DNA from: Bacteroidia bacterium
GTDB taxonomy: Bacteria > Bacteroidota > Bacteroidia > UKL13-3
Direction of reading: 5' to 3'
Assembly: GCA_021740845.1 (NCBI GenBank)
Contig: JAIOYZ010000016.1
Span: 1 to 64,000 of the forward strand
DNA length: 64,000 bases
Every line of letters starts with the position of its first letter. Positions within the stretch are counted from its first letter, which is position 1. Below, piece by piece: positions 29,845 through 54,651 of this stretch. The notes under the pieces were generated by a model. It ran no database searches and was not told the origin of the DNA. It worked only from the letters and a program-made list of their open reading frames with translations. The position numbers and the translations under genes were made by a program.

Positions 29845-29881
29845 AAAAAGCCCAACACAATTTGCATGTGTTGGGCTTTTT
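29845..29881. terminator. Bidirectional intrinsic terminator between convergent genes
   Basis: AAAAAGCCCAACACA ... TGTGTTGGGCTTTTT. Confidence 0.92.
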
Positions 29882-32444: not shown

Positions 32445-34313
32445 TTATTTTATTATTTTTTTAATGAATGTTTGAGAACCTGTTTGCACTTGAATTAAAT
32501 ATACACCTTGGCTTAAGTTGCTTACGTCTAATTTAAGTTCGTTTTGTCCAGCAGTAATTAATGTGTTTTCAGATACCAATTGTTGTCCGCTTAAGTTGAA
32601 CAAGGTTATGGTGCAAGATTGATTTTCTTTGGATTGAAGTTTTATGTTTAACTCTTCATTCATTGGGTTTGGATAAACCGAAAGAACGGATAATGATTTT
32701 TCAACCAAGCCTGTTGCACTAGTTACAGAAATAGAATCACAACTCATATTTGAGCAAGAATCTGTTCCACTAATTACGCTTAAACAAACATAATAGTTTC
32801 CATTAGTGGTGAAGGTGTGTGATACAACTGCATCACTACTATAGGTTCCATCACCAAAATTCCAATTATTACTAAAGTTATCACTTGCTAATGAACTAAA
32901 CATAAAAGTATTTGGAGTATTGGTATCATTTGATTTTTCAAAGTCGGCACCGCAGGTAGATTGAGTAACCAAGCCTGTTGTGATAATGCTAACGCAATAA
33001 GTATTAGAACAAGTGGTGTCAACTGAATTACGAACTGTTAAACAAATAGTATGAACTCCAGGTGAGTTAAAATTATGTTCTGCATTTGTATTGTGTGTTG
33101 CTCCCGCTCCATCAAAAAGCCAAGTATAAACCAAAGGAGTTCCACTAGAATGATTAATGAATCTGTAATTATTAGTTGTGCCAATACGCTCGTAACTAAA
33201 ATTGGCTAAGCAAGCTGCACTGCTAGAACTGCCATTACTAAATGTTTTGCAAATTGTGCTGCGGCAAAGTGTATCGCTACCTTGAATATTGTATTTTGTT
33301 AAACAAACAGTATGCGAGCCTAAAGTTGTAAAGTTATGAATAGGATTGCAATTATCTGAGGTTGTTCCATCGCCAAAATTATAAACGCAGCGCGTTGTTG
33401 TTCCAGAACTTGTATTTGCAAATCTTACATAGTGTGGGTTTGAACCAATGCTATCGCTTTTAAAAATAGAGAAATTAGCAGAACAAGGATTAGGTGTTTC
33501 TATATTGATACTATCACATTTGGTTTGAGTGCAAGAGCTATCTTTTTTTACAACAGTTAAACAAACTAAGTATTTACCTCCATGCAAATAGGTATGGTTT
33601 GGTGTTCTATTATCAGAACCACTGCCATCTCCAAACGACCAAAAATAACGATATGCTGTATCATTCATGGTTGCTGTAAAAAACTTTTTAAAAGCGTTAT
33701 CGCTGCTATTAGTTTTTGTCCAATTGGCATTGCAAGTTGTTGGTATTTCTACATTGATACTATCACATTTGGTTTGAGTACAAGAGCTATCTTTTTTTAC
33801 AACTGTTAAACATACCAGGTATTTGCCACCATGTAAATATATATGGTTTGGCGTCCTATTATCAGAACCACTGCCATCCCCAAACGACCAAAAATAACGA
33901 TATGCTGTGTCGTTCAAGGTTGCTGTAAAAAACTTTTTAAGAGCGTTATCGCTGCTATTAGTTTTTGTCCAATTGGCATTGCAAGTTGTTGGTATTTCTA
34001 CATTGATACTATCACATTTTGTTTGGGTGCAAGAGCTATCTTTTTTTACTACAGTTAAACAAACAAGGTATTTGCCACCATGCAAATAGGTATGGTTTGG
34101 TGTTCTATTATCAGAACCACTTCCATCCCCAAACGACCAAAAATACTTATAAGCTGTATCGTTTAAATTAGCAGAAAAGAACTTTTTATATGCATTATCA
34201 GTGCTATTAGTTTTTGTCCAATTTGCATTGCATGGATCTTGAGCTTTGGAGGTAAAACCAAGTGATAAAATAAATAAAGCTAAAAAAGTAGTCTTGAGTA
34301 AACTTGTTTTCAT
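32445..34313 (-). CDS. PKD-repeat secreted protein with C-terminal T9SS sorting domain
   Basis: Signal peptide; FWSFGDGSGSDNRTPNHTYLHGGKYLVCLTV repeats; SVYPNPMNEELNI...GVYLIQVQTGSQTFIKKIIK. Confidence 0.88.
   Translation of the reverse strand: MKTSLLKTTFLALFILSLGFTSKAQDPCNANWTKTNSTDNAYKKFFSANLNDTAYKYFWSFGDGSGSDNRTPNHTYLHGGKYLVCLTVVKKDSSCTQTKCDSINVEIPTTCNANWTKTNSSDNALKKFFTATLNDTAYRYFWSFGDGSGSDNRTPNHIYLHGGKYLVCLTVVKKDSSCTQTKCDSINVEIPTTCNANWTKTNSSDNAFKKFFTATMNDTAYRYFWSFGDGSGSDNRTPNHTYLHGGKYLVCLTVVKKDSSCTQTKCDSINIETPNPCSANFSIFKSDSIGSNPHYVRFANTSSGTTTRCVYNFGDGTTSDNCNPIHNFTTLGSHTVCLTKYNIQGSDTLCRSTICKTFSNGSSSSAACLANFSYERIGTTNNYRFINHSSGTPLVYTWLFDGAGATHNTNAEHNFNSPGVHTICLTVRNSVDTTCSNTYCVSIITTGLVTQSTCGADFEKSNDTNTPNTFMFSSLASDNFSNNWNFGDGTYSSDAVVSHTFTTNGNYYVCLSVISGTDSCSNMSCDSISVTSATGLVEKSLSVLSVYPNPMNEELNIKLQSKENQSCTITLFNLSGQQLVSENTLITAGQNELKLDVSNLSQGVYLIQVQTGSQTFIKKIIK
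33437..33446 (+). repeat. GGTTTGAACC motif, exact
   Basis: gtgGGTTTGAACCaa; inside PKD gene. Confidence 0.95.
33480..34235 (-). repeat. Three near-identical tandem units of about 249 bp (83 aa) inside the PKD protein gene; outer boundaries approximate
   Basis: gttggtatttctacattgatactatcacat recurs at a 249-bp interval (about 33738 and 33987); translated CNANWTKTNSSDNA...DSINVEIPTT three times. Confidence 0.88.
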
Positions 34314-34621
34314 TTGAGTTAATTATTTTCTATTCCTATGTTAGAAATAGCAGGGCCAAGGTAATGGGTATTTACTTGATTTACAAGTGTCCTAACAATT
34401 TTCTCTTTAAGAGAATTTTAATGTTTTTGTCCTCCTCTCTAATAGGAACCTAATTAGTTTGGTTCAACCCGAAAATTGATTTGCATTAAAGAAATTGTAA
34501 TAACCACCTTCCTTGCAATTCTGGGTTTTTGCAAGGCCGCTTATTTTAATCCATTATAGCAAATATGCAATCCAAAATAAAATCACATAATTTTAGCTTC
34601 CCCAAATTAGTAAAAAAAATA

Positions 34622-34631
34622 GGTTCAAACC
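34622..34631 (-). repeat. GGTTTGAACC motif, exact (left arm of terminator)
   Basis: GGTTCAAACC on +; intergenic. Confidence 0.95.
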
Positions 34632-34641
34632 GCCTTGTTTT

Positions 34642-34651
34642 GGTTTGAACC
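34642..34651 (+). repeat. GGTTTGAACC motif, exact (right arm of terminator)
   Basis: GGTTTGAACC; intergenic. Confidence 0.95.
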
Positions 34652-34662
34652 TATTTTTTTTA

Positions 34663-36870
34663 TTATTCTACAAAATCTTCTTTATCTGGCAAAGAATTGG
34701 AGAATTTATCACAATCCATTTCAATACTCAAAGGTGATTGTGGCGGAGTCCATTCGTTTACAATTTGCAATAAGTTGGGAACTGTGGTAACTTTTTGCAT
34801 ATAGTTTGCCCAAATTGGCATTGCCATAGCAGAACCAGAACCTAAATTTAAGCTTCTAAAATGTATGGCTCTATCTTCCCAACCAACCCAACATCCAGAA
34901 ACAAGAGTTGGGGTAATTCCAATAAACCAACCATCGCTATAGTTTTGTGTGGTACCTGTTTTACCGCCGCAAGCACCCGGAATTTTGTATTGATATTTTA
35001 TTTTTGCAGCTGTTCCAGTTGTGGTAACTTGTTCTAACATTTTACACATTACATAAGCAGTTTGCTCGCTTAATGCCTCTTGTGTTATGGGTAGATTTTC
35101 AAAAATTACATTGCCATTTTTATCTACTATTCTAGTTAAATAATTCGGTTTGATCCAAACGCCTTTGTTAGCAAATGTTGAAAAAGCACCAACCATTTCG
35201 TAAACGGATATGTCTGCTGTTCCCAATGCAGAAGACGGATAAGGTTCAATTTTACTGGTAACACCCATCTTTTTTGCAAGGTCGATTACGTTTTTAATAC
35301 CATCATCGCCTAGCATTTTTAAAACATTTAGGCAGATTAAATTTATAGAAAGTTTAAGTCCTCTAAACATGGTCATTTCAGGCAAATCATATTTGGTATC
35401 TGCATTACCCGGATTATAATCTGGGTAGCCATCAAAGCTAACAGGCTTATCAGGAACCATAGTACAAGGAGAGAATCCATTATCTACAGCTACTGAATAT
35501 ACAAAAGGTTTAAAGGTTGAACCCACCTGTCTTTTTGCGGTAATGTTTACGTGGTCGTATTTAAAGTATTTGTAATTTGTACCACCCACCCAAGCTTTAA
35601 TTTTTCCTGTTTGAGGATCCATACTCATAAAACCACATTGCATAAAATGCTTATAATATTTAATGCTATCCATGGGAGTCATGGTAGTATCAATTTCTCC
35701 CTTGGTATAACTAAAAACACGCATCTTAACAGGAGTATTAAATTCCTTCATAATCTCTGCTTCAGTCTTTTTCATTTCACGAGCAATTCTGTATCTATCG
35801 CTACGTTTCATTCCACTAATCAAAACCTCTTTAAATTCTCCCCAAGGATCTCTTCCTTTCCAATGAGCAAAGAAGAGTTTCTGCTGATCGCGCAATTGTG
35901 ATTCAACTGTTTCTTCTGCAATTTTTTGCATGGTTGGGTTAATGGTGGTATAGATTTTTAAACCATCCTTATATAAATTATAACCATTTTCTTCGCACCA
36001 ATCCAATAATTCCATACGAAGGGTTTCTCTAAAATAGGTGGCCAAACCTTCGTTATGACTTTCCTCTGCAAAGTTCAATTCTATGGCTTCTGATTTAAAA
36101 AGTTCACAAGTATCGGAGGTTAAATATCCAGCCTTTTCCATTTGGTTCAAAACGGTATTTCTTCTTCTTAAAGCATTGGCAGGGTTACGCACAGGACTGT
36201 ATAAAGTTGGAGCTTTTAACATACCCACTAACATGGCTGCTTCTTTTGCATTTAGGTCTTTTGGTGATTTGCCAAAGAAGGTTTTGGATGCACTACGTAT
36301 ACCAAATGAATTGCTGCCAAATTCTACGGTATTAAAATACATAGTAAGAATTTCGTCTTTGGTATAACGTTGTTCAATAAGCACGGCTGTAATCCATTCT
36401 TGAATTTTGGTGCGGGCTTTTTCAACTACACTTCTAAACTTTTTTCTTGGGAATAAATTTTTTGCCAATTGTTGCGAAATGGTACTACCACCTTGACGCC
36501 TGCCAATTAAATTATAGATTACCATGGTAAATAAGCGGCTATTATCTATTCCGCTATGCTGGTAAAAACGGATGTCTTCTGTAGCAATTAAGGCATTTAT
36601 CAATTGCGGACTAAGTTCCTCATAACTCGCGTTGCTTCTATTTTGCAAATAATATTTTCCAAGTTGAGAACCATCATCGGCATAAATTTCACTTGCCAAT
36701 TGTGTGGTTGGGTTTTCCAATTCTTCAATAGGAGGTAATTGACCAAACCAACCCATGGCAATGGTGCCAACCAATGTAGAGAGTAATAAAACTCCTAAAA
36801 AGGCTCCAATCCAAAGCCATTTAATCCATTTCCAATAAGGGCTTTTCGTAAAATATTGATTCAATTTCAT
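34663..36870 (-). CDS. mrcA: Penicillin-binding protein 1A-type transglycosylase/transpeptidase
   Basis: ATEDIRFYQHSGID, GGSTISQQLAKNLF, VGSTFKPFVYSVA, GKTGTTQNYSDGWFIG. Confidence 0.92.
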   Translation of the reverse strand: MKLNQYFTKSPYWKWIKWLWIGAFLGVLLLSTLVGTIAMGWFGQLPPIEELENPTTQLASEIYADDGSQLGKYYLQNRSNASYEELSPQLINALIATEDIRFYQHSGIDNSRLFTMVIYNLIGRRQGGSTISQQLAKNLFPRKKFRSVVEKARTKIQEWITAVLIEQRYTKDEILTMYFNTVEFGSNSFGIRSASKTFFGKSPKDLNAKEAAMLVGMLKAPTLYSPVRNPANALRRRNTVLNQMEKAGYLTSDTCELFKSEAIELNFAEESHNEGLATYFRETLRMELLDWCEENGYNLYKDGLKIYTTINPTMQKIAEETVESQLRDQQKLFFAHWKGRDPWGEFKEVLISGMKRSDRYRIAREMKKTEAEIMKEFNTPVKMRVFSYTKGEIDTTMTPMDSIKYYKHFMQCGFMSMDPQTGKIKAWVGGTNYKYFKYDHVNITAKRQVGSTFKPFVYSVAVDNGFSPCTMVPDKPVSFDGYPDYNPGNADTKYDLPEMTMFRGLKLSINLICLNVLKMLGDDGIKNVIDLAKKMGVTSKIEPYPSSALGTADISVYEMVGAFSTFANKGVWIKPNYLTRIVDKNGNVIFENLPITQEALSEQTAYVMCKMLEQVTTTGTAAKIKYQYKIPGACGGKTGTTQNYSDGWFIGITPTLVSGCWVGWEDRAIHFRSLNLGSGSAMAMPIWANYMQKVTTVPNLLQIVNEWTPPQSPLSIEMDCDKFSNSLPDKEDFVE

Positions 36871-40095: not shown

Positions 40096-40105
40096 GGTTT
40101 GAACC
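40096..40105 (+). repeat. GGTTTGAACC motif, exact
   Basis: ttcGGTTTGAACCaa; intergenic upstream of bactofilin. Confidence 0.95.
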
Positions 40106-40164
40106 AAAACCAAAATAAGAGTTTCTAAATTAGAAAGCTATTCTATTTATTTTGAAAAATTTGA

Positions 40165-40172
40165 TACATTTG
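40165..40172 (+). promoter_or_regulatory. Candidate Bacteroidota -7 element (TAnnTTTG) upstream of bactofilin/atp cluster
   Basis: TACATTTG at 40165; no clean -33 TTTG at the expected spacing. Confidence 0.35.
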
Positions 40173-40295
40173 TCGAACTAGGTATTATAAATCATCAAAA
40201 AAGGTAACTGTAATCTCAATTAATTTTTTTGTTGGCCAATAATAGGAGGAAGGTTTTCTCCACCTAGGTTTAAAAATAAATTTAATTAGTGTAAC

Positions 40296-40757
40296 ATGGC
40301 TATTTTTAACCAATCAAAGAATACTACATTTAACCCTCAGGAAATTAATATTCTGAATGCTGGGACCAAAATAAATGGGGATCTAATTTCCGAAGGCGAT
40401 TTACGGGTGGATGGATCTTTAAAAGGAAATATAGAGGTGAAAGCCAAATTAGTTTTGGGTGTTTCCGCACAAGTTGAAGGAAATGTTAGGGCTATCAATT
40501 GTGATATTTCTGGCGTTGTAAAAGGAAATATTTCTGTTTCAGACCTGCTTACCATTAAAAGTACTGCCAAAATCAATGGCGACATATCCTGTTCAAAATT
40601 AATTATCGAAGTTGGAGCAGAATTTAATGGCCGAAGCACAATGGCTAACAATCTTTCAAATGTTTTTAGTGATATAAATACTGGTAAAAATTCCAAGCCA
40701 TTAGACACCAAAGCTCCTGTTATCAGTGAAAAACACGGAGAAAAAGCCGCAGTTTAA
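40296..40757 (+). CDS. Bactofilin (polymer-forming cytoskeletal protein)
   Basis: TKINGDLISEGDLRVDGSLKGNIEVKAKLVLG. Confidence 0.92.
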   Translation: MAIFNQSKNTTFNPQEINILNAGTKINGDLISEGDLRVDGSLKGNIEVKAKLVLGVSAQVEGNVRAINCDISGVVKGNISVSDLLTIKSTAKINGDISCSKLIIEVGAEFNGRSTMANNLSNVFSDINTGKNSKPLDTKAPVISEKHGEKAAV

Positions 40758-40941
40758 CCAAGTACTTAAATACACTAACCAAGCCATTCAAATGATTTTG
40801 GTTATGGTAGCAGGTACACTTGGGGGAAAATACGCCGATAAATATTTCGGATTTTCTTTTCCAATCCTTACGCTACTGGGAGTTTTGTTCTCTGTATTTG
40901 CTGCATTATACCTTTCTCTTAAAGATTTTCTTAAAAAATAG
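40726..40941 (+). CDS. AtpZ/AtpI-family protein
   Basis: Two TM segments, MVAGTLGGKYADKYFG, 32-bp overlap with bactofilin gene. Confidence 0.8.
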   Translation: MKNTEKKPQFNQVLKYTNQAIQMILVMVAGTLGGKYADKYFGFSFPILTLLGVLFSVFAALYLSLKDFLKK

Positions 40942-41062
40942 TTTCTACATGGGTATTTAATTCAATAGGAAATCCTACTTTTGCGGCAACGAAAAACGGC
41001 TTATTCATTAAAATTGATGTTCTTTTTTATTGATAGTCAGTTTTTTAATAGAGTAAAACCCT

Positions 41063-41449
41063 ATGACAAAAAACAATTTTATGCCTGCCTTACTTGCGCT
41101 TTCTGCGGCAATGGCAGCTGGTATTTTTGTTTTTCAACTGGTTTTTCCTTCCATACCATTAACTAATTTGGTTTGGGCAGCCCTTATTTATTTTATTTTA
41201 CTAACCTTAGTTACCTTTAAAATTACCAATTCGGGTTTGCCTAAAGATAACAAAACATTCTTTGTTAGGGTTTATAGTGCTATCGGTATTCGTTTCGTAT
41301 TTTCTATTTTTCCATTGTTTATATATTTAATTTTCTCACCTGAGCGCCAGTTATCATTCGCAATTGTGTATCTTTTATTGTATTTCTTTTACACAGCTTT
41401 TGAAATTTATTTCCTTGTGGTTAACTTGCGCCCCGATTTAAAGAAATAA
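41063..41449 (+). CDS. Hypothetical membrane protein in the atp cluster
   Basis: Four predicted hydrophobic segments; positioned between atpZ-like gene and atpB. Confidence 0.7.
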   Translation: MTKNNFMPALLALSAAMAAGIFVFQLVFPSIPLTNLVWAALIYFILLTLVTFKITNSGLPKDNKTFFVRVYSAIGIRFVFSIFPLFIYLIFSPERQLSFAIVYLLLYFFYTAFEIYFLVVNLRPDLKK

Positions 41450-41457
41450 CATAGTAC

Positions 41458-42633
41458 ATGCAATCCAATAACAAAAAGATTTTCAGATATTTAATTCCAG
41501 TTTTTTTGGTTCTATTGTACGTAGGCTACAACAGTGCAAGTCTGTTTGCCGACGAATCGCATACTGTAGATAGTTTAACCGAAACTGCAACAGTAGCCAG
41601 CCACGATGCTGAACACCATGAAACCATAGGTGAAATGGAACATGAATCAGCAGTTGAAGCAGAACACAAGGTGGATGCAGGTAAATTAATCATGGAACAT
41701 ATTGGGGATGCGCATGATTGGCATATTGCAACTATTGGCAAAAGCCATATTTCTATTCCCTTGCCTATTATCATTAAAGACAATCAAGGTTTCAAGATTT
41801 TTTCTTCTTCTCGTTTCCACCATGGACATGAGGCTTATGAAGGATATAAATTAGAGGAAAATAAAATAGTTGCCGTTAACGAAGCAGGTGAAATTAACCA
41901 TGAAGCTAGTTTCTTAGATTTAAGCATTACAAAAAATGTAATGTCTATGTTTATTTCAGTTTTATTCCTTTGTTGGTTGATGTTATCTGTAGCGAGACAC
42001 TATACTAAAAACGCAGGTAAAGCTCCAAAAGGTATTGCCAATTTAATCGAAACCTTAATCATGTTTATACGTGATGAGGTGGCTAAACCTTCAATTGGCC
42101 CAAAGTATGCTAAGTTTTTACCTTACTTACTAACTATCTTCTTTTTTATCTTTATAAATAACTTATTCGGTTTGATCCCATTTTTCCCAGGAGGAGCAAA
42201 CGTTACTGGAAATATAGCTGTTACTATGGTTTTGGCAGTTTTCACCTTTGTGATTACTTCATTTAATGGAAACAAAAGCTATTGGGGACATATTTTTATG
42301 CCTCCTGGTGTTCCAAAAGCATTGTGGATTTTGTTAGTGCCAATTGAAATCATTGGTATGTTGAATAAACCAATAGTATTGATGATTCGTTTATTTGCAA
42401 ACATCACTGCTGGTCACATTATCATGTTAGGTTTCTTTAGCTTAATCTTCATTTTTGGAGCAATGAGTGAAACCTTAGGTTTAGGAGTATCTGTATTGTC
42501 AGTTGCCTTTACTGTTTTCATGAATTTCCTTGAATTGCTTGTTGCATTTTTACAAGCGTATGTATTTACCTTGCTTTCTGCTTTATACTTTGGTATGGCA
42601 GTAGAAGAGCATGCTCACGAAGAACATCATTAA
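41458..42633 (+). CDS. atpB: ATP synthase F0 subunit a with His-rich N-terminal extension
   Basis: RLFANITAGHIIMLGF; N-terminal HDAEHHETIGEMEHESAVEAEHK. Confidence 0.95.
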   Translation: MQSNNKKIFRYLIPVFLVLLYVGYNSASLFADESHTVDSLTETATVASHDAEHHETIGEMEHESAVEAEHKVDAGKLIMEHIGDAHDWHIATIGKSHISIPLPIIIKDNQGFKIFSSSRFHHGHEAYEGYKLEENKIVAVNEAGEINHEASFLDLSITKNVMSMFISVLFLCWLMLSVARHYTKNAGKAPKGIANLIETLIMFIRDEVAKPSIGPKYAKFLPYLLTIFFFIFINNLFGLIPFFPGGANVTGNIAVTMVLAVFTFVITSFNGNKSYWGHIFMPPGVPKALWILLVPIEIIGMLNKPIVLMIRLFANITAGHIIMLGFFSLIFIFGAMSETLGLGVSVLSVAFTVFMNFLELLVAFLQAYVFTLLSALYFGMAVEEHAHEEHH

Positions 42634-42924
<291 letters not shown>

Positions 42925-42937
42925 TCGGTATACCAAT

Positions 42938-42969
42938 CAGAACACAGCAGCTTTGGCCGCTGTGTTCTG
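42938..42969 (+). terminator. Hairpin between atpE and atpF (attenuator / mRNA stability element)
   Basis: CAGAACACAGC ... GCTGTGTTCTG followed by TTTT. Confidence 0.8.
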
Positions 42970-43014
42970 TTTTAGGATAAACCAATTACCATTATTCATT
43001 AAAAAAAACACAGC

Positions 43015-43509
43015 ATGGAATTAGTAAAACCGGGTTTAGGTTTAATTTTCTGGATGACAATTACATTTAGTATTGTATTGTTCATTCTTTCAAAATTTGC
43101 CTGGAAACCTATCTTAAATTCGATTAGGGAGCGCGAAGATTCAATCAATAACGCTTTGAATGCAGCTGAAGAAGCACGCAAACAAATGAGTGCGTTAAAG
43201 ACTGATAACGAAAAACTTCTTAATCAAGCACGTGCTGAGCGCGATCAAATGTTGAAAGATGCCAATGATATGAAAGATAATATCATAGCACAGGCAAAAA
43301 AATCAGCAGAAGATGAAGGTCGTAAAATCATTGAAAAAGCAAGCGCCTCTATTGAAGCAGCTAAAGTAAATGCTATGAATGAGTTGAAAACTCAAGTAGC
43401 AGTTCTTACTGTTGATTTAGCAGAAAAAGTGCTTCGTAAGAAAATGGAAGACCGCGCACAGCAAGAATCTTTTGTAAACGAAAATTTAAAATCAATCACC
43501 TTAAACTAA
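43015..43509 (+). CDS. atpF: ATP synthase F0 subunit b
   Basis: PGLGLIFWMTITFSIVLFILSKFAWKPIL, coiled coil. Confidence 0.95.
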   Translation: MELVKPGLGLIFWMTITFSIVLFILSKFAWKPILNSIREREDSINNALNAAEEARKQMSALKTDNEKLLNQARAERDQMLKDANDMKDNIIAQAKKSAEDEGRKIIEKASASIEAAKVNAMNELKTQVAVLTVDLAEKVLRKKMEDRAQQESFVNENLKSITLN

Positions 43510-43510
43510 C

Positions 43511-44062
43511 ATGTCTGAACACAGAGTATCCGGCAGGTACGCCAAATCCTTGATAGACCTTGCAATTGCAAACAATTGCTTGGAAGCTATTAAAGCTGAT
43601 ATTTTGGCGTTCAAAAAAGCGATTGAAGAAAATTCGTCTCTTGCAAAAATGTTTAAAAGCCCAATTGTAAAGGGTGATAAAAAACAAGCGATTGTTCATC
43701 AAATATTTGGTAGTTCGTTTAACAAACTTACCTTAGACTTTATGGATATCGTTATTCGCAAGAACCGTGAATATTATTTACCTGATATGGCCGTCGCTTT
43801 CATTGGTCAATATAACGAGATTAATAAAATTACTACCGCTTCTGTTAAAACGGCTGTTGCTATCAGCGATGCTGTTGTTAATGAAGTGAGAGAGTTTATT
43901 GAAAAACAAACAGGAAAAAAAGTAATCTTAGAAACACAAGTAGATGCAGATATTATTGGAGGTTTGGTTATCCAAATGGAAGATAAATTGTATGATGCCA
44001 GCATTTCTGGAAAGCTTAAGAAAGCAAAACAGGATTTATTAAATACTTACATTTCAAAATAA
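43511..44062 (+). CDS. atpH: ATP synthase F1 subunit delta
   Basis: RVSGRYAKSLIDLA, IIGGLVIQMEDKLYDASISGKLKKAK. Confidence 0.95.
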   Translation: MSEHRVSGRYAKSLIDLAIANNCLEAIKADILAFKKAIEENSSLAKMFKSPIVKGDKKQAIVHQIFGSSFNKLTLDFMDIVIRKNREYYLPDMAVAFIGQYNEINKITTASVKTAVAISDAVVNEVREFIEKQTGKKVILETQVDADIIGGLVIQMEDKLYDASISGKLKKAKQDLLNTYISK

Positions 44063-44071
44063 CATTTCATT

Positions 44072-45652
44072 ATGGTAGAAATAAGACCAGATGAGGTATC
44101 AGCCATCATAAGAGAGCAATTAAGCAATTTTAAGTCTGAGACCGAACTTGAAGAAGTGGGTACCGTACTCCAAGTGGGTGATGGTATCGCACGTATCTAC
44201 GGATTAACCAAAGTTCAGTCGGGTGAGCTGATTGAATTTTCTAATGGCGTAGAAGGAATTGTACTTAACCTAGAAGAAGACAACGTTGGTGCGGTATTAT
44301 TGGGTTCATCCGATCAAATTATTGAAGGTGACACTGTAAAACGTACTGGTAGAATTGCTTCCATTAAAGTGGGTGAAGGTATGTTAGGCCGCGTTATCAA
44401 TACATTGGGTCAACCAATCGATGGTAAAGGTCCAATTACAGGCGATTTATACGAAATGCCTTTAGAGCGTAAAGCTCCTGGTGTTATCTATCGCGAGCCA
44501 GTTAAAGAACCATTACAAACTGGTATCAAGGCTATCGATGCCATGATTCCTATTGGTCGTGGACAACGTGAGTTGGTTATCGGTGACCGCCAAACAGGTA
44601 AAACTGCGGTGTGTTTAGATACCATCATCAACCAAAAAGAATTTTATGATGCTGGTAATCCAGTATTTTGTATCTATGTAGCTTGTGGTCAAAAAGCTTC
44701 TACAGTTGCTCAAGTTGTTAAAACTTTAGAAGAACGTGGTGCAATGGCTTATACTGTTATTGTAACAGCTACCTCTTCAGATCCAGCTCCAATGCAATTC
44801 TTTGCTCCAATGGCAGGTGCTGCAATTGGTGAATTTATTCGCGATACTGGCCGTCCAGCTTTGATTATCTATGATGATTTGTCAAAACAAGCTGTGGCTT
44901 ACCGCGAGGTTTCTTTGTTACTTCGTCGCCCGCCAGGACGTGAAGCATACCCTGGAGACGTATTCTATTTGCATAGTCGTTTACTAGAAAGAGCTGCAAA
45001 AATTAACAGTACAGATTCAATTGCTCAGCAAATGAACGACCTTCCAGCTTCTATCAAGCATTTGGTAAAGGGTGGTGGCTCATTAACTGCTTTGCCAATT
45101 ATTGAAACTCAAGCTGGTGACGTTTCTGCTTATATTCCTACCAACGTAATTTCTATTACCGATGGTCAGATATTCTTAGAAGCTAACTTGTTTAACTCTG
45201 GTATTCGTCCAGCTATTAACGTAGGTATCTCGGTATCACGTGTGGGTGGTAATGCTCAGATTAAATCAATGAAAAAAGTAGCTGGTACTTTGAAATTGGA
45301 TCAAGCACAATATCGTGAATTAGAAGCTTTCTCTAAATTTGGTTCAGACCTAGATGCTGCTACCAAAGCGGTTTTAGCTAAAGGTTCTCGTAACGTAGAA
45401 ATCCTAAAACAAGGACAATTCTCTCCTTTGAGAGTTGAACAACAAGTTGCTATTATTTACCTAGGTACTAAAGGTTTATTATCAAGTGTACCGGTTGATA
45501 AAATTCGTGAGTTTGAAGCGGATTATCTAAACTTCCTTGAAAACAAACACATCGACGTTTTAGAGAAAATCAAAAAAGGCGGAATTGGTGATGATGTAAC
45601 TAGCGTTTTAGAAGCTGTTGCAAAAGATCTTTCGGCAAAATATAGTGCTTAA
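44072..45652 (+). CDS. atpA: ATP synthase F1 subunit alpha
   Basis: [45 protein letters not shown]. Confidence 0.98.
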
Positions 45653-45677
45653 TTTTTAGGAACTGGCAAAATAAAAA

Positions 45678-46547
45678 ATGGCTAATTTAAAAGAAGTTCG
45701 TATTAGAATCACCTCGGTTAACTCAACCCAGCAAATCACCAAAGCAATGAAGTTGGTGAGTGCTACTAAGTTGAGAAGAGCCCAGAATGCAATTGTTCAA
45801 ATGAGACCTTATGCTCAAAAATTGAACGGTATTTTGGCTAACCTTTCTGATTCAATGGATGTAGATTCCTTAAAGGTATATTTTAATCAACGCCCTATTA
45901 ATAAGGTCTTGTTGGTTGTAATCACTTCCGATAGAGGATTGTGTGGTGGCTTTAATGCCAACGTTATTAAGTTGGCCACACGATTAATGAAAGAAGATTT
46001 CGCTGGAAAAGAGGTAACTATTTTACCTGTTGGAAAGAAAGCCTTCGAATTCTTTACTCGTGCTAATGCATCCATTATCCCTGATTTTAAAGACACTTTC
46101 CAACAACTAAATGCGGAAAATGGCTTTAGTATTGGAGAGTACGTTTTGAACCAATTTAAAGCAGGTAAATTTGATAAGGTAGAATTGGTTTACAATCAAT
46201 TCAAAAATGCCGCTACTCAAATTTTGGTAAACGAGCCTTTTCTTCCAATTGCTAAACAAAACATGGATGCCAACGCTTCAAAAAATGATTATATTTTTGA
46301 ACCAGGCAAAGCAGAAATCTTGGAAACTTTGATTCCAAGAATTTTGAAAACCCAAGTTTATAAAGGTTTATTGGATTCATTTGCTTCTGAACATGGTGCT
46401 CGTATGATTGCTATGGATAAAGCAACTGATAATGCTGGTGAATTAATTAAAGCCTTGAAATTAGAATATAACCGCGCTCGTCAGAGTGCCATTACAACTG
46501 AGATTTCAGAAATTGTAGGTGGTGCAGCAGCTTTGAGCGGTTCATAA
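45678..46547 (+). CDS. atpG: ATP synthase F1 subunit gamma
   Basis: RITSVNSTQQITKAMKLVSATKLRRAQ, SDRGLCGGFNANV. Confidence 0.97.
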   Translation: MANLKEVRIRITSVNSTQQITKAMKLVSATKLRRAQNAIVQMRPYAQKLNGILANLSDSMDVDSLKVYFNQRPINKVLLVVITSDRGLCGGFNANVIKLATRLMKEDFAGKEVTILPVGKKAFEFFTRANASIIPDFKDTFQQLNAENGFSIGEYVLNQFKAGKFDKVELVYNQFKNAATQILVNEPFLPIAKQNMDANASKNDYIFEPGKAEILETLIPRILKTQVYKGLLDSFASEHGARMIAMDKATDNAGELIKALKLEYNRARQSAITTEISEIVGGAAALSGS

Positions 46548-46564
46548 TTAATAGTTTTATAATG

Positions 46565-46598
46565 AAAGCCGAGTAACCAAAAGTTGCTCGGCTTTTTT
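46565..46598 (+). terminator. Intrinsic terminator after atpG
   Basis: AAAGCCGAGtAAC ... GTTgCTCGGCTTTTTT. Confidence 0.9.
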
Positions 46599-46620
46599 GT
46601 AGAATTTTTTTTGTGGATTC

Positions 46621-47148
46621 TCAATTAAAGCAATATCCAAATCCAATCCCTGGCCAAATTAGAGTTCTCGGCTCCTTGTAAATAAATGCTTCGTAGGAAT
46701 CAACAGAAAGGGCAAGGGGGAGTTTAATGCTAATACCAGCCCTTAAAAATATTCCTTTTTTAGGTTGAATTCGTAATCCAATGCCTAATTGGGGTCTAAA
46801 TTTAAAGAGATTTCGATTTTCTTTATGAAAAGTTATTGTTTGTAAGCTTCCTCCCGAAATTTCTCCTTTAAGCCATTTTTTACCCACTAAAAAATGATAC
46901 ATAATAGGTACATACAAAAAGCTTCTATCGTTTAAGCCATTTAATTGCCAGGTTCCTGGAATAAATGAAAGTCCAGCAATAAGGGTTCTATTATCGGTTA
47001 AACCATAATCAAAATTAAGACTATAAATGTCTGAAGCACCTAATAATTCTGCGAATACAATTTTTGTATGTTTCTTTTCTTGACCAAAAGAAAATGCAAA
47101 TGAAATACACCAAAGGACGGCAGTAAAAATTACTTTCTTTAATATCAT
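46621..47148 (-). CDS. Hypothetical outer-membrane-type protein
   Basis: Signal peptide, beta-rich sequence. Confidence 0.55.
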   Translation of the reverse strand: MILKKVIFTAVLWCISFAFSFGQEKKHTKIVFAELLGASDIYSLNFDYGLTDNRTLIAGLSFIPGTWQLNGLNDRSFLYVPIMYHFLVGKKWLKGEISGGSLQTITFHKENRNLFKFRPQLGIGLRIQPKKGIFLRAGISIKLPLALSVDSYEAFIYKEPRTLIWPGIGFGYCFN

Positions 47149-47942
47149 TAATTAGCTCCTACTTCTTTAGCAGTATAAAATTTAAGACCTAATTCTTTTG
47201 CCTTTTGAATAATTTTAATAAAATCTTCTTGGGCAATATGGGAATCTGAACCTTCAAGAGGTTTTCCATCCTTACTTAAAAAGTGCGTATACAAACTTAT
47301 TGTTTGCCTGGAGTTTTTTGCTTTCTCTAGAGCCTTAAAAATATCTTCTAATTCTAAATGATAGCGTGTATCAATTCCTGCCCCAAAAAATACTTTCACA
47401 TTGCCTTGTCTCAAATAAATTTGGTCTAGATCACATAGTTTTTTATTTAAATATGGAGCAATAATTTTCCTAATATTAACAAAATGTTTTAGCAAGGCTT
47501 GGTCAACTTCTGAGGTGCAATCCCCATGAGGATAGGCAAAAGTAACTGGATTAAATCCATCCTTTTTCATAGCCTCTGTTACGTTTAATATTTCATCCTG
47601 AAGATAGGCGTCAACGCCATATTTTTCTGCATACTCATCGGCATGTGCATGGGTTAATGAGTGATGTGCAATTTCGTGTCCATCCTTCATAAATGATTTC
47701 ATCATTTCTTTGGTTGAGTCGGTTATTGTATTATAATTCTCAATATAGAAGGTTAATTTAACATCGTTTTCTTTAAGAAAAGTTTGAAGATGTTGCCATG
47801 TATCTGGAGGTTTATCTACGGTTATGAGGATACCGGCGCCAAGAGGTTTAGAATTATCCTTTTTGCAATTTGAAAAAGTAAAACCAATAAGGATTGCAAA
47901 TAAAAATATTTTGTAAGAATTCGCTTTTCGGTTTAAATACAT
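47148..47942 (-). CDS. Polysaccharide deacetylase (NodB)-family lipoprotein
   Basis: HEIAHHSLTHAHADEY, VTFAYPHGDC, lipobox FSNC. Confidence 0.85.
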   Translation of the reverse strand: MYLNRKANSYKIFLFAILIGFTFSNCKKDNSKPLGAGILITVDKPPDTWQHLQTFLKENDVKLTFYIENYNTITDSTKEMMKSFMKDGHEIAHHSLTHAHADEYAEKYGVDAYLQDEILNVTEAMKKDGFNPVTFAYPHGDCTSEVDQALLKHFVNIRKIIAPYLNKKLCDLDQIYLRQGNVKVFFGAGIDTRYHLELEDIFKALEKAKNSRQTISLYTHFLSKDGKPLEGSDSHIAQEDFIKIIQKAKELGLKFYTAKEVGAN

Positions 47943-48130
47943 CTATCAAATATACAAAATCAAAATTATAGCTTTTGATTTAAAATGAAATCCGTAGGCT
48001 ATTGTCTTAAGATTTGGCAATAGGTTATGATTTGATAAAAAATAACTTTCCAGTTTTACCAGAATTGAATATTTTTTTTAGGCATTTGATTTTCGAGATT
48101 ATGGCTATTTTCGCCGTTTAATCTATAATT

Positions 48131-48568
48131 ATGGCAAAAGCAGAAATCCACACCCAGAAAGGTGTTATGAAAATTGAGTTTTTTGATAAAGATGCTCCAA
48201 ATACGGTTGCAAATTTTTTAAAACTGGCTAAAAGTGGCTATTATGATGGTGTAAGTTTCCATCGCGTTATTCCTGATTTTGTTATCCAAGGTGGCGACCC
48301 AACAGGAACTGGCGCAGGTGGTCCTGGTTATAAAATAGATTGCGAATTAACTGGTGAAAATCAATACCATGATAGAGGGGTTTTATCTATGGCACATGCA
48401 GGCAGAAATACTGGGGGCTCTCAATTCTTTGTATGCCATAGCAGAAATAATACCGCACATTTAGATAGAAACCATACTTGTTTTGGTAAGGTTTACGAAG
48501 GCTTAGAAGTTATCGATGCTATTCGTCAAGGCGATGTGATGACGAAAGTTATTGTAACAGAAGGATAG
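48131..48568 (+). CDS. Peptidyl-prolyl cis-trans isomerase (cyclophilin)
   Basis: [38 protein letters not shown]. Confidence 0.96.
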
Positions 48569-48575
48569 TTTGTTT

Positions 48576-48604
48576 TTGGCCATTGGCTTTTAGCCTTTGG
48601 CCAA
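48576..48604. repeat. Imperfect inverted repeat TTGGCCATTGGCTTTTAGCCTTTGGCCAA
   Basis: 7-bp outer arms TTGGCCA/TGGCCAA plus GGCT/AGCC inner stem; related string near 55935-55960. Confidence 0.75.
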
Positions 48605-48614
48605 TTACCTTTTC

Positions 48615-50138
48615 ATGCTAAAAATTACCTATATAACCCATTCTTCTATTTTAATTGAAACAGAAGATGCAAAGTTGATTTCTGACCCATGGTTTTTTGG
48701 TTCAGCCTATTTAAACCACTGGCATGTTTTCCCCAAACCTATTGATACAAATTATGCAAAAGATATTACCCATGTAATTATTACGCATGGCCACGAAGAT
48801 CATTGTCATTTCCCTACCCTAGGGCAGCTTAATAAAAAAGCAGCTGTATTTCTGCCTTATACTTGGTTGCAAGATACAAAGGATGCCATTTTGAGTATTG
48901 GTTTTAAATCTGTTTACGAATTAGATAGCTATAAAACGGTATCTATTGGCATGCATCTTAAATTAACCTTTGTGGTAAATGGACTTGATTCCATATTTAT
49001 TCTCGAATATAAAGGAAAGGTTTATCTAAATTTAAATGATGCATTTAATGCCACACACCTTAAGTTTTTAAAATTAATAGCCCAAAAAGTAAATGCCCAT
49101 TGGCCGAAAATAGATTATTTAATGTCGGGGGTAGGAGGTGCTGGATATTTTCCCAATGCTATTCATAGTCCCTTCAAAAATGATCTTGAGATAGGTGTTT
49201 TAAGGGAGCAGTTTTTAATGAAACTATTTTGTGAATTTGTAGTTGCATTCAAACCAAAGGTTGCAATTCCGTTTTTACCTGGTTTTGTTTTGATCCAAAA
49301 AGATAAGTTATGGATTAATCATATAAGACAGGCAAGAAACTTAATTGATAAGTATTATTCTGAATTAAAAACAGATCATCAAGTTGCTTTTTGGCATTTG
49401 TATCCAGGCGATTACATTTCGGAAGATGTTTGGGAAAAGACCTCTCCTTATTATAATTTGGTTCAAAACGATGAATGGGGAAGCTTTGGGGAAACACAAT
49501 ATGCCACAGAGATTTCTACTGAAACTGATGCGAAGCTAGAACCAAATACCACAACTATTGAAGAACTTTGCACCCAACTAAATACTTTGTTTCCCAAAAG
49601 TTGTAAAGGCATAAAAATAAAAGTGCTTTCTAAGTTAAATTTCTCCATAAAGCTAAAAGAATTGCCAGATGAAATAATTCATGTTTGTTTTGCTAATGGG
49701 AAACTAATCGCATATTCAAAGCTACAAGCTAATAGTAGTCCTAATTTAATTATTAGAACCAATTGCCGCAATCTATTGTATTCTATTAATGAATTATGGG
49801 GAGGGGATGTGTTCTTTATTGGATATGGTGCCGATTTAGATATTTTAAATAATGATTGTATAAAGGATAATTTAGATATTCTTAGCCTTCGTGTACTTTC
49901 TATTTTTCCTACAGCCCTTCAAAATTTAAGAAGGCAACCTTGGAGAGCGTGGAGATATTTTTACCATAATAAAATGCATGCTTCCTTGGCCTTAAAACAA
50001 AAGCTATTTTCAAAAGAGAAGATTAATGCCTTACCCTTTAATGAAAGAAGTCATTGGATTCATACCTCTAAATGTGAAACATGTTTAGTTTGTGATTTGC
50101 CATTGCTTAACAATTCCTTGGCAGAAAGATTGAAATAG
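48615..50138 (+). CDS. MBL-fold metallohydrolase with long C-terminal region and CxxCxxC
   Basis: VIITHGHEDHCHFPTL; C-terminal SKCETCLVCDLPL; likely start 48615. Confidence 0.8.
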   Translation: MLKITYITHSSILIETEDAKLISDPWFFGSAYLNHWHVFPKPIDTNYAKDITHVIITHGHEDHCHFPTLGQLNKKAAVFLPYTWLQDTKDAILSIGFKSVYELDSYKTVSIGMHLKLTFVVNGLDSIFILEYKGKVYLNLNDAFNATHLKFLKLIAQKVNAHWPKIDYLMSGVGGAGYFPNAIHSPFKNDLEIGVLREQFLMKLFCEFVVAFKPKVAIPFLPGFVLIQKDKLWINHIRQARNLIDKYYSELKTDHQVAFWHLYPGDYISEDVWEKTSPYYNLVQNDEWGSFGETQYATEISTETDAKLEPNTTTIEELCTQLNTLFPKSCKGIKIKVLSKLNFSIKLKELPDEIIHVCFANGKLIAYSKLQANSSPNLIIRTNCRNLLYSINELWGGDVFFIGYGADLDILNNDCIKDNLDILSLRVLSIFPTALQNLRRQPWRAWRYFYHNKMHASLALKQKLFSKEKINALPFNERSHWIHTSKCETCLVCDLPLLNNSLAERLK

Positions 50139-50163
50139 ACTTTTTGTAAATTGGGTTTGAGGC

Positions 50164-50205
50164 AAAAAAAAGAGTCGTAATAATTATTATTACGACTCTT
50201 TTTTT
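50164..50205. terminator. Bidirectional intrinsic terminator between convergent genes
   Basis: AAAAAAAGAGTCGTAATAATTATTATTACGACTCTTTTTTT. Confidence 0.92.
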
Positions 50206-50215
50206 AGGAAGAAGA

Positions 50216-53200
50216 TTAATTTATCTGGAGTTTTCTTGAGTATACTTGATCCCCAGATTGAACTCTTATTATATAGAATCCTTTTGGTTGATGAGTTAAA
50301 TCCAATTCTTGAACCTGTAAATTGTTTCCTTTTATGGTTTGTTGAACAATTATTTTACCCAACATATCGTAAACGGAAACCTGCACATCTTGCGTTTGAA
50401 TATCTGCTAAGCGCAAATTGATTGAGCCATTACTTGGATTAGGATAAACACTCATTATTTTATCAATGTTCATTACTTCATTAACACCAGTTGGGGTTGG
50501 TTCTTTCAAAACATTTATTACTCTTTTGGCTACAGGTGATTGATTGCCAGAAAGATCCTTAACTACATAGGTAACACTATACAAACCAGGAGCATCTCCA
50601 AAATGCTTGCCTTCCGCATTTATAGGCAAGGAATTAGTAACTACAAGTGATGGTCTCATTTCAGCATCTGTATTATAATTATCAATTAATGAAACTGGTG
50701 CATCTTCGTAAACTGCCCATCTTGGTAAGTTAACTGTAATGATATTTAATAAATCTACTTGTGGACTAGTTAAATCTTTTATTTTCACAACTCTAGAAAC
50801 AGAATCTTTATTTCCAGATGGATCTGTTGCAATATACCAGATGGTATATTCGCCTATTACATTACTAAGAACGTTACCTTTTTTAGTAACCACTATGGTA
50901 TTTGCTGGCCAATAATTGTCAGATACATTTACACCTGGATCTAAAAATGTGGTATTAACATCCCACTCCATAGGGGTAACTCCTTTTAATGTTATTGTAG
51001 GCCCCTTGGTATCTTTTACAATTACTTCCACTAAAACTTCATCTCCAATATTTCCGCTATTATCTCTGGCTACATAACGAATAAAGTAGCTTCCAACACT
51101 GTTTACATCTACTGTTCCTTGAATGGTTAAATCAACAAATGAATTTGACCAATAATTATCAGTTACTGTCACCACTTTGGTTAAATCAATAGCAGTTCCT
51201 ACTTGTTGAATGTATGGATTAGATTTAGGTGTTACCTCTGGACGAGTACTATCGCCAATAGTAATTGCTCTTTGCGCATTGTCACTCATTCCAAAAGCGT
51301 CTACTACTATATAATCCATGCTGTATAGGCCAATCTTAGAGGTATCCAAATCGGTGGTAATTACCACAGAACTATAAATATCAAAACCTTGATTGTCTTT
51401 AGCTATATAGCCGGGTTCAGTATAATCATTATACACCTCTACATAGACATTTTCTGGACCCATCAATGTTAAGGTTGGACCCGTTTGGTTCAATACTACA
51501 AATACGGTTCTATACAAGGTATCACTTACGTTTCCGTATAAATCTGTTGTTATGTATTTCAAGTAATTTGGTCCAACAGCAGTAGTATCAACCGTTCCTA
51601 TGGTTTGGTATTTATGGCTTATGTCACCTTCGATATTATCCATTGAAAGTACTCCTGGATCTACAAAAGTTTTGTTGATTTCTGTATAATAAGTTGAATT
51701 TCCAATCATGGAAATACTAGGTTTAACTGTATCCATTGGGAAGTTTACGGTATAATCTCTAAACACACCTAAGAAAGTTACACTTGGATTTAGGGTAGTT
51801 CCAGCATAGGTTACTCCCACTCTCATTCTAGTGGTTCCTATTCTTTGTGTTTCACTTACTTTAACTGTATCTATCTTAGTCAAGTTTTGAGCATTTATTT
51901 CATCCATTACCAATTCGTCATTGGTAAACAATCCATCCATATTAAAATCTATCCAGGCCTTGCGGTCCATTGGGCTAGTGGTGGATGGACGAACAACAGT
52001 TAACAATCCCTTGCTTCCTCTGTACATCGATGCGGCTTGATTGCCTTCTACTATTTGGAAACATGGGGTATAAGCATTGGTGCTAGTATCTAATCCACTT
52101 TCTAAGACTACACGACTAATACCCACACTACCATCTGCCAAATTGATATCTGTAATACATGCAGGTTGGTCGTAAGCTCCAATATTTACATAATCTACTT
52201 TTATCAAAGAGTCGTTTCCGTACTGATTAGTTGTTACCAATTTCACAGTATACTTTGTTCTCTGTGTAAAGCGAATCATTGGATTTTGACTTGTATTGCT
52301 TGTTCCCATGATAAACTGAGCAGTTCCTGGTGTGAAGGTCCATTTCCAAGTACTTGGACCAAACAAACTCTTATCTGTAAAGCGGAAAGTATCGGTATTG
52401 AAACCTTGTACCTTGTCTGCTTCAAAACGTGTTACTGGTTTTTGAGTAGTTGGTAAGAACAAAACATTTTTGCATGTGGTATCGCTGCCCACACAATTGT
52501 AGGTTACCAAGCATATCTTTTTGTAATTTGGTGTTGTTACCAAGAAGCTTTTATTAGCAGTTGCACCTGTAGAATCATAAACACCATTTCCATCGGTATC
52601 CCATGAGTATTGCATCAAGGTTCCAACAGACGCACTGATAAACTGTACAGGTTGCAAACTAAAGATGGAATCTGGCACCACCATAATAGATGTTGGTTTT
52701 GGATAACTAGCATCTATAACTTCCCATCTGATTGAAAAACCAGCCGAATCGTATGGCAAGGTAGGATTACCAGTACCCAATTTAAACTTTAGGAACAACC
52801 TATTTCCACCTTTTATACCATTCTGCAAAATACTTACAGGCAATTGGTTCACATTAGAACCACCAATTGTTTTTAGAATTGGAGCGGATGCACTAGTTCC
52901 ATTGTGAATTACTATGGAATCGTTGGGCAACATCTTCATTCTATCTACCCAAAGAATAATGCTATCGGCACAAGGCTCTAATAACAAACCTTGGCAACCG
53001 TTAAGTTGAGAACGTGTATAGCTTAAGCCAGGACCAGAAGCGGCAAAAATAAATCCTTCTTGCTCGGAGCTCTTATCGCTTCCACTACCGCTACACATAT
53101 TTATGCTATTCAATACCTCTATATAATTTGGTTTACAAATGGTATCCCAGCCTCTATCATTCCATGCTTGCAAGCAAATGGTAAACTTACCTGGATCTCC

Positions 53201-54382
53201 GCCAAAGAACAATGGATTTTGATCAGTTGGTCCTGCAAAGAAATTATTGAAATAAGGAGGTGTAGTACATAAATTACAAGCTGGACTATAAGTCCAATAC
53301 CATTGGAAAGGACCATTAGAAGTGATATCAACTAAAGAAGCATAATCACCAATACCAATCTTTCTGCGTGCGGCAAAGAAATTTGGTTTAGGAGTTGTAT
53401 TTGGGGTATCTACCCATATATATTTTAAGATACTATCGCGTAAGCTATCACGCTTGAAATCATTTATTGCAAGTAACCTAACAGGTACAAAACCTCTATT
53501 AGGGAAAGTATATTTAAAACGCGAATTGTATTTAGCTGTATCAATATATTGTTGTGAAGTCCATGCTACATTTTGGCGGCTATAACCAAATGGCAGAGGG
53601 TTTACACTTGGTAAGTCCCAATAGTTGCGGGTAGCATTGGTGCTTGTAGCAACTAAATCATAAGGACTATTAATCCAAACGGTATCATTAGGAATGGTAT
53701 TTACGGTTGCTTGACTAGGAAAGTAATTGGCAATTGGGGGTAAAATTGGTCCGCCACCACCAGCACCACCAGGCGTTCCTGCTCTAAATTCATCAACTAC
53801 TGCTCCTCCAAATCCACGTAATGAAAGCCCGCCAGGAGTAAGTCCACCAATGGTATAACTAACAATAGAGTTAACTAAAGTTATTCCATCTGCAGCATAT
53901 AAATAACAAGATATATTAGTAGTTGTATTAAATACTACTTCTGCTCTATACCATTGGTTGTATGTATAAGATTGCGGTGATGATATTAAATCTGCGTAAC
54001 CCCACGATGCATTTTGCTGAATCAAAAAAGTGGTAGTGTTTGGAGCAAGCAACAAGGAATAACCCCCACCGGATGAAGCGCCAAAACCAAGGTAAGCTCT
54101 TCCAGCAGCGGAGAAATTAACCCACCAACTTATTTTTTGCCCAGCGGTTCCAACTGTAATATCAGTTCTATAAGCCCAATCACCACCACATGATAATGCT
54201 TTGGAACCTGATTTCACTGGAGAAGTTACAATGGTAGAAGTACCTGCAGCTGCATTAGTCCAGGGCGATGATGGCCAACTAGGTAAAGTTTCAAAACCTT
54301 CAACAATTGCTGGTAATGATTGTGCGCTTAGAGTGCTAATCATTAAAATAAATTGGAAAAACAGGATGTAAATTTTTTTCAT
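50216..54382 (-). CDS. Giant secreted multidomain T9SS cargo (PKD, GEVED-like, DUF5011-like Ig repeats)
   Basis: Signal peptide at MKKIYILFFQFILMISTLSAQ; repeated ITLKG...DPGVNVSDNYWP...GEYTIWYIATDPSGN; C-terminal SVYPNPSNGSINLRL...GFYIIRVQSGDQVYSRKLQIN. Confidence 0.88.
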   Translation of the reverse strand: MKKIYILFFQFILMISTLSAQSLPAIVEGFETLPSWPSSPWTNAAAGTSTIVTSPVKSGSKALSCGGDWAYRTDITVGTAGQKISWWVNFSAAGRAYLGFGASSGGGYSLLLAPNTTTFLIQQNASWGYADLISSPQSYTYNQWYRAEVVFNTTTNISCYLYAADGITLVNSIVSYTIGGLTPGGLSLRGFGGAVVDEFRAGTPGGAGGGGPILPPIANYFPSQATVNTIPNDTVWINSPYDLVATSTNATRNYWDLPSVNPLPFGYSRQNVAWTSQQYIDTAKYNSRFKYTFPNRGFVPVRLLAINDFKRDSLRDSILKYIWVDTPNTTPKPNFFAARRKIGIGDYASLVDITSNGPFQWYWTYSPACNLCTTPPYFNNFFAGPTDQNPLFFGGDPGKFTICLQAWNDRGWDTICKPNYIEVLNSINMCSGSGSDKSSEQEGFIFAASGPGLSYTRSQLNGCQGLLLEPCADSIILWVDRMKMLPNDSIVIHNGTSASAPILKTIGGSNVNQLPVSILQNGIKGGNRLFLKFKLGTGNPTLPYDSAGFSIRWEVIDASYPKPTSIMVVPDSIFSLQPVQFISASVGTLMQYSWDTDGNGVYDSTGATANKSFLVTTPNYKKICLVTYNCVGSDTTCKNVLFLPTTQKPVTRFEADKVQGFNTDTFRFTDKSLFGPSTWKWTFTPGTAQFIMGTSNTSQNPMIRFTQRTKYTVKLVTTNQYGNDSLIKVDYVNIGAYDQPACITDINLADGSVGISRVVLESGLDTSTNAYTPCFQIVEGNQAASMYRGSKGLLTVVRPSTTSPMDRKAWIDFNMDGLFTNDELVMDEINAQNLTKIDTVKVSETQRIGTTRMRVGVTYAGTTLNPSVTFLGVFRDYTVNFPMDTVKPSISMIGNSTYYTEINKTFVDPGVLSMDNIEGDISHKYQTIGTVDTTAVGPNYLKYITTDLYGNVSDTLYRTVFVVLNQTGPTLTLMGPENVYVEVYNDYTEPGYIAKDNQGFDIYSSVVITTDLDTSKIGLYSMDYIVVDAFGMSDNAQRAITIGDSTRPEVTPKSNPYIQQVGTAIDLTKVVTVTDNYWSNSFVDLTIQGTVDVNSVGSYFIRYVARDNSGNIGDEVLVEVIVKDTKGPTITLKGVTPMEWDVNTTFLDPGVNVSDNYWPANTIVVTKKGNVLSNVIGEYTIWYIATDPSGNKDSVSRVVKIKDLTSPQVDLLNIITVNLPRWAVYEDAPVSLIDNYNTDAEMRPSLVVTNSLPINAEGKHFGDAPGLYSVTYVVKDLSGNQSPVAKRVINVLKEPTPTGVNEVMNIDKIMSVYPNPSNGSINLRLADIQTQDVQVSVYDMLGKIIVQQTIKGNNLQVQELDLTHQPKGFYIIRVQSGDQVYSRKLQIN

Positions 54383-54651
54383 AACGATTTGACTTGAAAT
54401 CAAATGTAATAAACTTGCTCTTAAAATAAAGTTAAAAAAAGAAGATTTATTTAATCTTGTTCCTTCTTTATTTAGTGTATTTCATTTTAATGATTTTTAT
54501 GAAATTGCACCTAAGAAAGACTTTGGTGGTTCTATTTTTCTTAAATGGGGTTTGCAAATGGATTGATTTTCAAGTGAATTTTTTTTATGGAATCAATGTT
54601 TACATAATTGCTTTGAAATTATTGATATTTGCGCCTTAAAGTATAGAGTAC

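Follow-up and report, generated by a model that had tools for sequence, protein, structure and literature searches.

The window (the whole 64,000-nt stretch of DNA analysed here) carries on its minus strand a gene for a PBP1A-like protein at 34663..36870, assigned from the ORF call and from a domain search that identified Transgly (PF00912) and Transpeptidase (PF00905) domains. The next gene downstream on the same strand (32445..34313) encodes, by domain search, a PKD-repeat protein with a T9SS Por_Secre_tail sorting domain, and therefore a terminator between the two would part two transcription units. The intervening DNA at 34613-34660 reads AAAAAAATA-GGTTCAAACC-gccttgtttt-GGTTTGAACC-TATTTTTTT. 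Two copies of one motif face each other here, the first on the plus strand (34622..34631, GGTTCAAACC) and the second on the minus strand (34642..34651, plus-strand text GGTTTGAACC), on either side of a 10-nt loop that was assigned to no strand (34632..34641, gccttgtttt). The motif search also recovered a copy with one mismatch, GGTTCAACCC, lying unpaired in the same intergenic stretch (34461..34470, plus strand), and comparison with relatives drew attention to a coding copy inside the PKD-repeat gene (33437..33446, minus strand), where GGT TCA AAC CCA is read as G-S-N-P. The preliminary description had the coordinates and anatomy of the hairpin exactly right, and its placement directly after the PBP1A stop codon was confirmed, as the structure lies 2 nt 3' of that codon (34663-34665, minus strand).

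A predicted terminator after the PBP1A-like gene

With its flanks, the stem of the hairpin is 19 bp long and perfect by sequence, and RNAfold pairs 21 positions around the 10-nt loop. Folding of the minus-strand RNA yielded -25.4 kcal/mol, compared to a mean of -5.7 for shuffled sequences (z = -9.9), and 0 of 200 shuffles matched this energy. An A-tract 5' and a T-tract 3' of the stem, symmetric at 7-8 nt and situated right beyond the stop codon, give the element the form of an intrinsic terminator on both strands; the terminator scan reported an 8-nt T-run directly after the stem in either direction. The element is very probably a bidirectional intrinsic terminator at which the transcript of the PBP1A-like gene would end, a prediction drawn from its position, stem, tracts and folding energy. 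A point against this assignment is the 10-nt loop, which exceeds that of most strong terminators. Conservation lends no support either, because the same site at the PBP1A 3' end of relatives is without a motif hairpin, often with a different gene downstream, and we therefore rejected conservation of the hairpin as an argument. The other strong terminator within the 24-44 kb part of the window, at 29845-29881, is an ordinary intrinsic terminator that shares the A-tract, stem, T-tract and bidirectionality of 34613-34660. However, it contains no motif copy, whereas the hairpin after the PBP1A-like gene is built from two.

An iterated near-palindrome

The motif, a near-palindrome of 14-15 bp (TTGGTTCRAACCRAA), is indeed iterated, as the preliminary description had proposed. 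There are 41 matches with at most one mismatch in the window versus 4.6 expected, and GGTTCAAACC occurs exactly 1318 times in the whole 4.09-Mb genome compared to 33 occurrences of a reversed-word control. Details of sequence and layout come from a directly read sample of 1.33 Mb, about one third of the genome (66 contigs), in which ORFs were called crudely and pairs were counted from exact motif matches. The extended consensus in this sample is T-T-GGTTCAAACC-G-A-A, with T at position -2 in 97% of copies. Relative to expectation, the commonest one-base variant is GGTTCGAACC (68 strand-wise matches at 34 places, 1 expected); it is a perfect palindrome with symmetric T/A flanks, and the motif overall has near-perfect dyad symmetry.

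By the crude ORF calls, 59% of exact GGTTCAAACC copies fall inside ORFs, and the intergenic density is approximately 5.5 times that in ORFs. Densities per kb are similar in convergent (1.22), tandem (1.27) and divergent (1.14) gaps, and a promoter-site role was rejected since divergent gaps are not enriched. Copies are spread nearly evenly (variance/mean of 1.2 in 20-kb bins). The two orientations are about equally common, whatever the sign of the GC skew on a contig; a polar signal of the Chi or KOPS type was rejected, as these contigs show no orientation bias. A longer transposed repeat was also rejected, because conservation stops about 4-5 nt outside the motif core.

Several further observations concern the surroundings of the motif. 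Around copies in the sample, A/T is weakly favoured near -19, -10 and +17 to +22, at a spacing of approximately one helical turn, which recalls the AT-rich flanks of the Haemophilus USS. The window includes 15.4 kb free of exact copies (40096-55476), in which the genes for ATP synthase and for a large surface protein lie. The longest motif-free stretch of the sample occupies positions 1-23402 of contig C9 (L149-L150; GC 0.32) and encodes two ResIII/DEAD helicases, a class-V aminotransferase, a RecN/AAA-like protein and a PAPS-reductase-domain protein; this content resembles a defence island of the phosphorothioation type (Dnd/Ssp), which may have been acquired. Other words are over-represented as well, namely TGACCCAA (152 vs. 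31 expected) and AACCCAAAACCC (49 vs. 0.6 expected) in the sample and TGCAGCTG in the whole window (13 strand-wise matches vs. 1.9 expected).

Distribution among relatives

All 18 congeners searched are enriched for GGTTCAAACC, with 46-840 copies that in each case exceed the genome's own control and differ about 20-fold between congeners. Counts stay close to background in the 49 family members from other genera and the 81 genomes from other families that were compared; one genome of the same family but another genus (G046) has 53 copies versus 22 for its control. The variant GGTTCGAACC is likewise enriched in most congeners, reaching 311 places in one, so that two dialect-like forms of the motif, with a CA or a CG centre, are found among close relatives. 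At position 33437, GGTTCAAACC in this genome corresponds to GGTTCGAACC in four relatives (L018, L019, L022 and L034), a synonymous change in a region of 67-71% local identity.

Among the genomes located through their PBP1A, which are MAGs labelled Bacteroidetes, Bacteroidia, Sphingobacteriales or, doubtfully, Chitinophaga pinensis, the motif is present in the tested relatives whose PBP1A is at least 77% identical and absent from those at 74% or less. The names of the relatives' isolates and their pond and lake MAGs suggest a freshwater organism. Congener G008 shares the flank consensus, and 98% of its copies have T at -2. Of 29 motif copies in the 148 kb aligned to G008 (72% identity), 8 are retained, versus 7% of random 10-mers. 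Motif sites therefore turn over fast yet are kept above expectation. Another congener, G149, repeats another word, CAGGTCGCGACCTGTCC, with about 10 strand-wise occurrences in the 400 kb at C9:1-400000 (L196-L215).

Close inverted pairs and their possible use as terminators

The pair after the PBP1A-like gene is far from being the only one in the genome, which contains 32 close inverted exact pairs: 12 arranged as GGTTCAAACC-N(2-32)-GGTTTGAACC, the orientation of 34613-34660, and 20 arranged as GGTTTGAACC-N(2-32)-GGTTCAAACC. Three of the 12 are copies of a single repeat, GGTTCAAACC-atattgcttttaatatt-GGTTTGAACC, located within 5 kb of one another (C49:91374, 92863 and 96211; L008-L010). The 1.33-Mb sample has 14 inverted versus 0 direct pairs with gaps below 20 bp and 18 versus 2 below 40 bp (p = 4e-4). 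Of 31 pairs examined, 26 are intergenic, compared to 142 of 388 single copies. Inverted pairing is non-random in this genome. The earlier likening of these pairs to those of Neisseria thus holds for the enrichment seen here, but it does not extend to the congeners. Close inverted pairs are reported to be frequent in every DUS-bearing genome (PMC3630211), whereas each congener has just 0-4 (including three with 656-840 motif copies) compared to the 32 found here, and pairing is therefore close to species-specific.

We also examined whether pairs in general resemble terminators. Seven or more consecutive T occur no further than 15 nt from the stem in 4 of 31 pairs versus 6 of 388 single copies (p = 0.004), although the difference becomes borderline (about p = 0.06) when the reference is restricted to intergenic single copies (6/143). 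In addition to 34613-34660, the T-tailed pairs are those at C49:240230, C17:12037 (L157) and C21:23511 (L158), all three with T9 tails and at gene ends. Because the natural flanks put T before the motif, the GGTTCAAACC-N-GGTTTGAACC orientation usually ends in AAA, not TTT; among the 12 pairs so oriented 34613-34660 is the exception, keeping T at -2 with A7 beyond. The motif is present in 5 of 112 terminator-like intergenic loci of the 1.33-Mb sample, which does not differ significantly from the 2.5 expected (random maximum 10), and a role as the standard terminator stem was rejected on this basis. Pairs showed no significant preference for stop-proximal sites (11/26 vs. 40/142 single copies). 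An enrichment at convergent gene ends was dropped as well; its p of 0.003 came from mixing two ORF callers, and a single caller gave p = 0.10-0.14.

Reading the pairs as terminators is therefore sound for 34613-34660 and, for three or more further pairs, plausible, but most pairs give it no support. The terminator proposed in the preliminary description is well supported by anatomy at this one site, but weak as a hallmark of the genome as a whole. On the features of the sequence, terminator use of the motif is real in this genome, but it is secondary and nearly species-specific, given the few T-runs (4/31), the 5 of 112 loci and the 0-4 pairs per congener. This predicted use illustrates how such an iterated motif can be co-opted.

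Competence and uptake machinery

Uptake sequences are well studied in Neisseriaceae and Pasteurellaceae, and in both families they are tied to type IV pili. We searched this genome and the 18 congeners for the corresponding machinery. ComEC and DprA were found in 19 of 19 genomes, a non-specific result because the controls, many other bacteria, have them too. No convincing match to a PilB/PilT-type type IV pilus ATPase was obtained in the 19 genomes with PF00437, which returned short, partial and weak matches in 10 of them, one above the cut-off. A receptor route like that of Neisseria or Haemophilus is therefore unlikely. However, Riemerella anatipestifer transformation requires ComEC, DprA, ComF and RecA plus four proteins unlike known machinery (PMC8459023); competence proteins of Riemerella include RA0C_RS04915, RS04920, RS02645 and RS09020. 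With this precedent and no pilus ATPase found, an uptake role is possible, but a new receptor would be needed. A literature search found the motif nowhere described as a genomic element (the matches listed look by title like primers or constructs) and did not find an uptake-sequence paper for Bacteroidetes.

Possible roles of the motif

The best explanation overall, to which we assign a probability of about 0.75, is that 34613-34660 would be a bidirectional terminator of the PBP1A-like gene built from a genus-restricted, iterated near-palindrome that is abundant for other reasons. The hairpin would terminate that gene and insulate the downstream gene for a PKD-repeat, T9SS-cargo protein. It is assembled from two inverted copies of TTGGTTCRAACCRAA, and termination is presumably not the main cause of the motif's abundance. 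Copies are spread evenly and in both orientations through genes and intergenic DNA; in the latter, low constraint would leave some of them close enough, and inverted, to form hairpins, a few of which may have been recruited as terminators. The likeliest primary role would be self-DNA recognition, for example as an uptake-sequence-like signal served by machinery without type IV pili, although we rate this somewhat short of an even chance; next would come a site bound throughout the genome by a dimeric chromosome protein, a role that we consider rather unlikely.

That the motif could be a DNA uptake sequence, with inverted pairs that terminate transcription as in Neisseria and Haemophilus and with pilus-independent uptake of the Riemerella type, is a tentative proposal. 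The abundance of the motif, its confinement to one genus, its two forms and the one site that switches between them, even spread, equal orientation, intergenic preference and the excess of inverted pairs are all consistent with it, as are the universal ComEC and DprA together with the Riemerella precedent (PMC8459023) and the fact that the sample's longest stretch without the motif is an island carrying helicases and a PAPS reductase. Much of this favours the uptake-sequence interpretation of the preliminary description, but the pilus ATPases that its parallel would call for were not found, ComEC and DprA are widespread in other bacteria, and the motif is near-palindromic whereas the classical DUS core is not. 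Dyad symmetry is accounted for equally well by a dimeric nucleoid-associated or organising protein with a chromosome-wide role, the symmetry of the site mirroring that of the dimer. The perfect palindrome GGTTCGAACC with its symmetric T/A flanks, the even spread and the equal orientation would suit such a protein; however, the 20-fold variation of GGTTCAAACC among congeners would not, promoter-side enrichment is lacking (1.14/kb in divergent vs. 1.27/kb in tandem gaps), and the protein itself is hypothetical, which leaves this role doubtful.

An iterated palindrome like cyanobacterial HIP1, with a link to a DNA methyltransferase or a repair pathway, would explain why a near-palindrome recurs within and between genes. 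It seems improbable, given that a motif of 10-14 bp whose centre varies is longer than one would expect of a methyltransferase site and that enrichment in this genome is intergenic, not coding. As for the pair at 34613-34660 itself, some close pairs are expected because the genome has 1318 copies, about 9.6 of any orientation with gaps below 40 bp in 1.33 Mb, and the pair might be a chance meeting with an incidental T-tract. Yet the preponderance of inverted over direct pairs at both gap limits and the symmetric A/T tracts directly after the stop codon make coincidence a poor explanation. Returning to self-DNA recognition, the fuller proposal that TTGGTTCRAACCRAA is the uptake sequence of a pilus-independent Bacteroidota genus, with CA and CG dialects, and that this species has begun to reuse inverted pairs as terminators is less likely than not. 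If the motif is an uptake signal, such sequences would have arisen independently once more and with a different receptor, and it would become possible to test what causes uptake sequences to spread; if it is not, the motif would be an undescribed genome-wide recognition site.

Comparison with known systems

The USS of Haemophilus and other Pasteurellaceae has asymmetric T/A flanks around a core and occurs in hundreds of copies in both orientations. The motif described here resembles it in the T/A flanks, the copy number and the use of both orientations, but differs in its core, in the weakness of its outer AT signal and in the lack of type IV pilus machinery. Cyanobacterial HIP1 is a palindromic word repeated very many times across the genome (PMC4390886), and the likeness lies in these properties, whereas length, sequence and the variable centre set our motif apart. 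Studies of Neisseriaceae report many inverted DUS pairs in each genome that bears the DUS and connect such pairs with terminators (PMC3630211, PMC2397512). Compared to the DUS, the present motif is near-palindromic, unlike the classical DUS core, and its host belongs to the Bacteroidota; its pairs are rare in congeners, a strong T-tract follows 4 of 31 of them, and a pilus ATPase was not found. Nevertheless, both are iterated, lineage-specific motifs with related dialects and intergenic enrichment, and both form close inverted pairs, some of them terminator-like.
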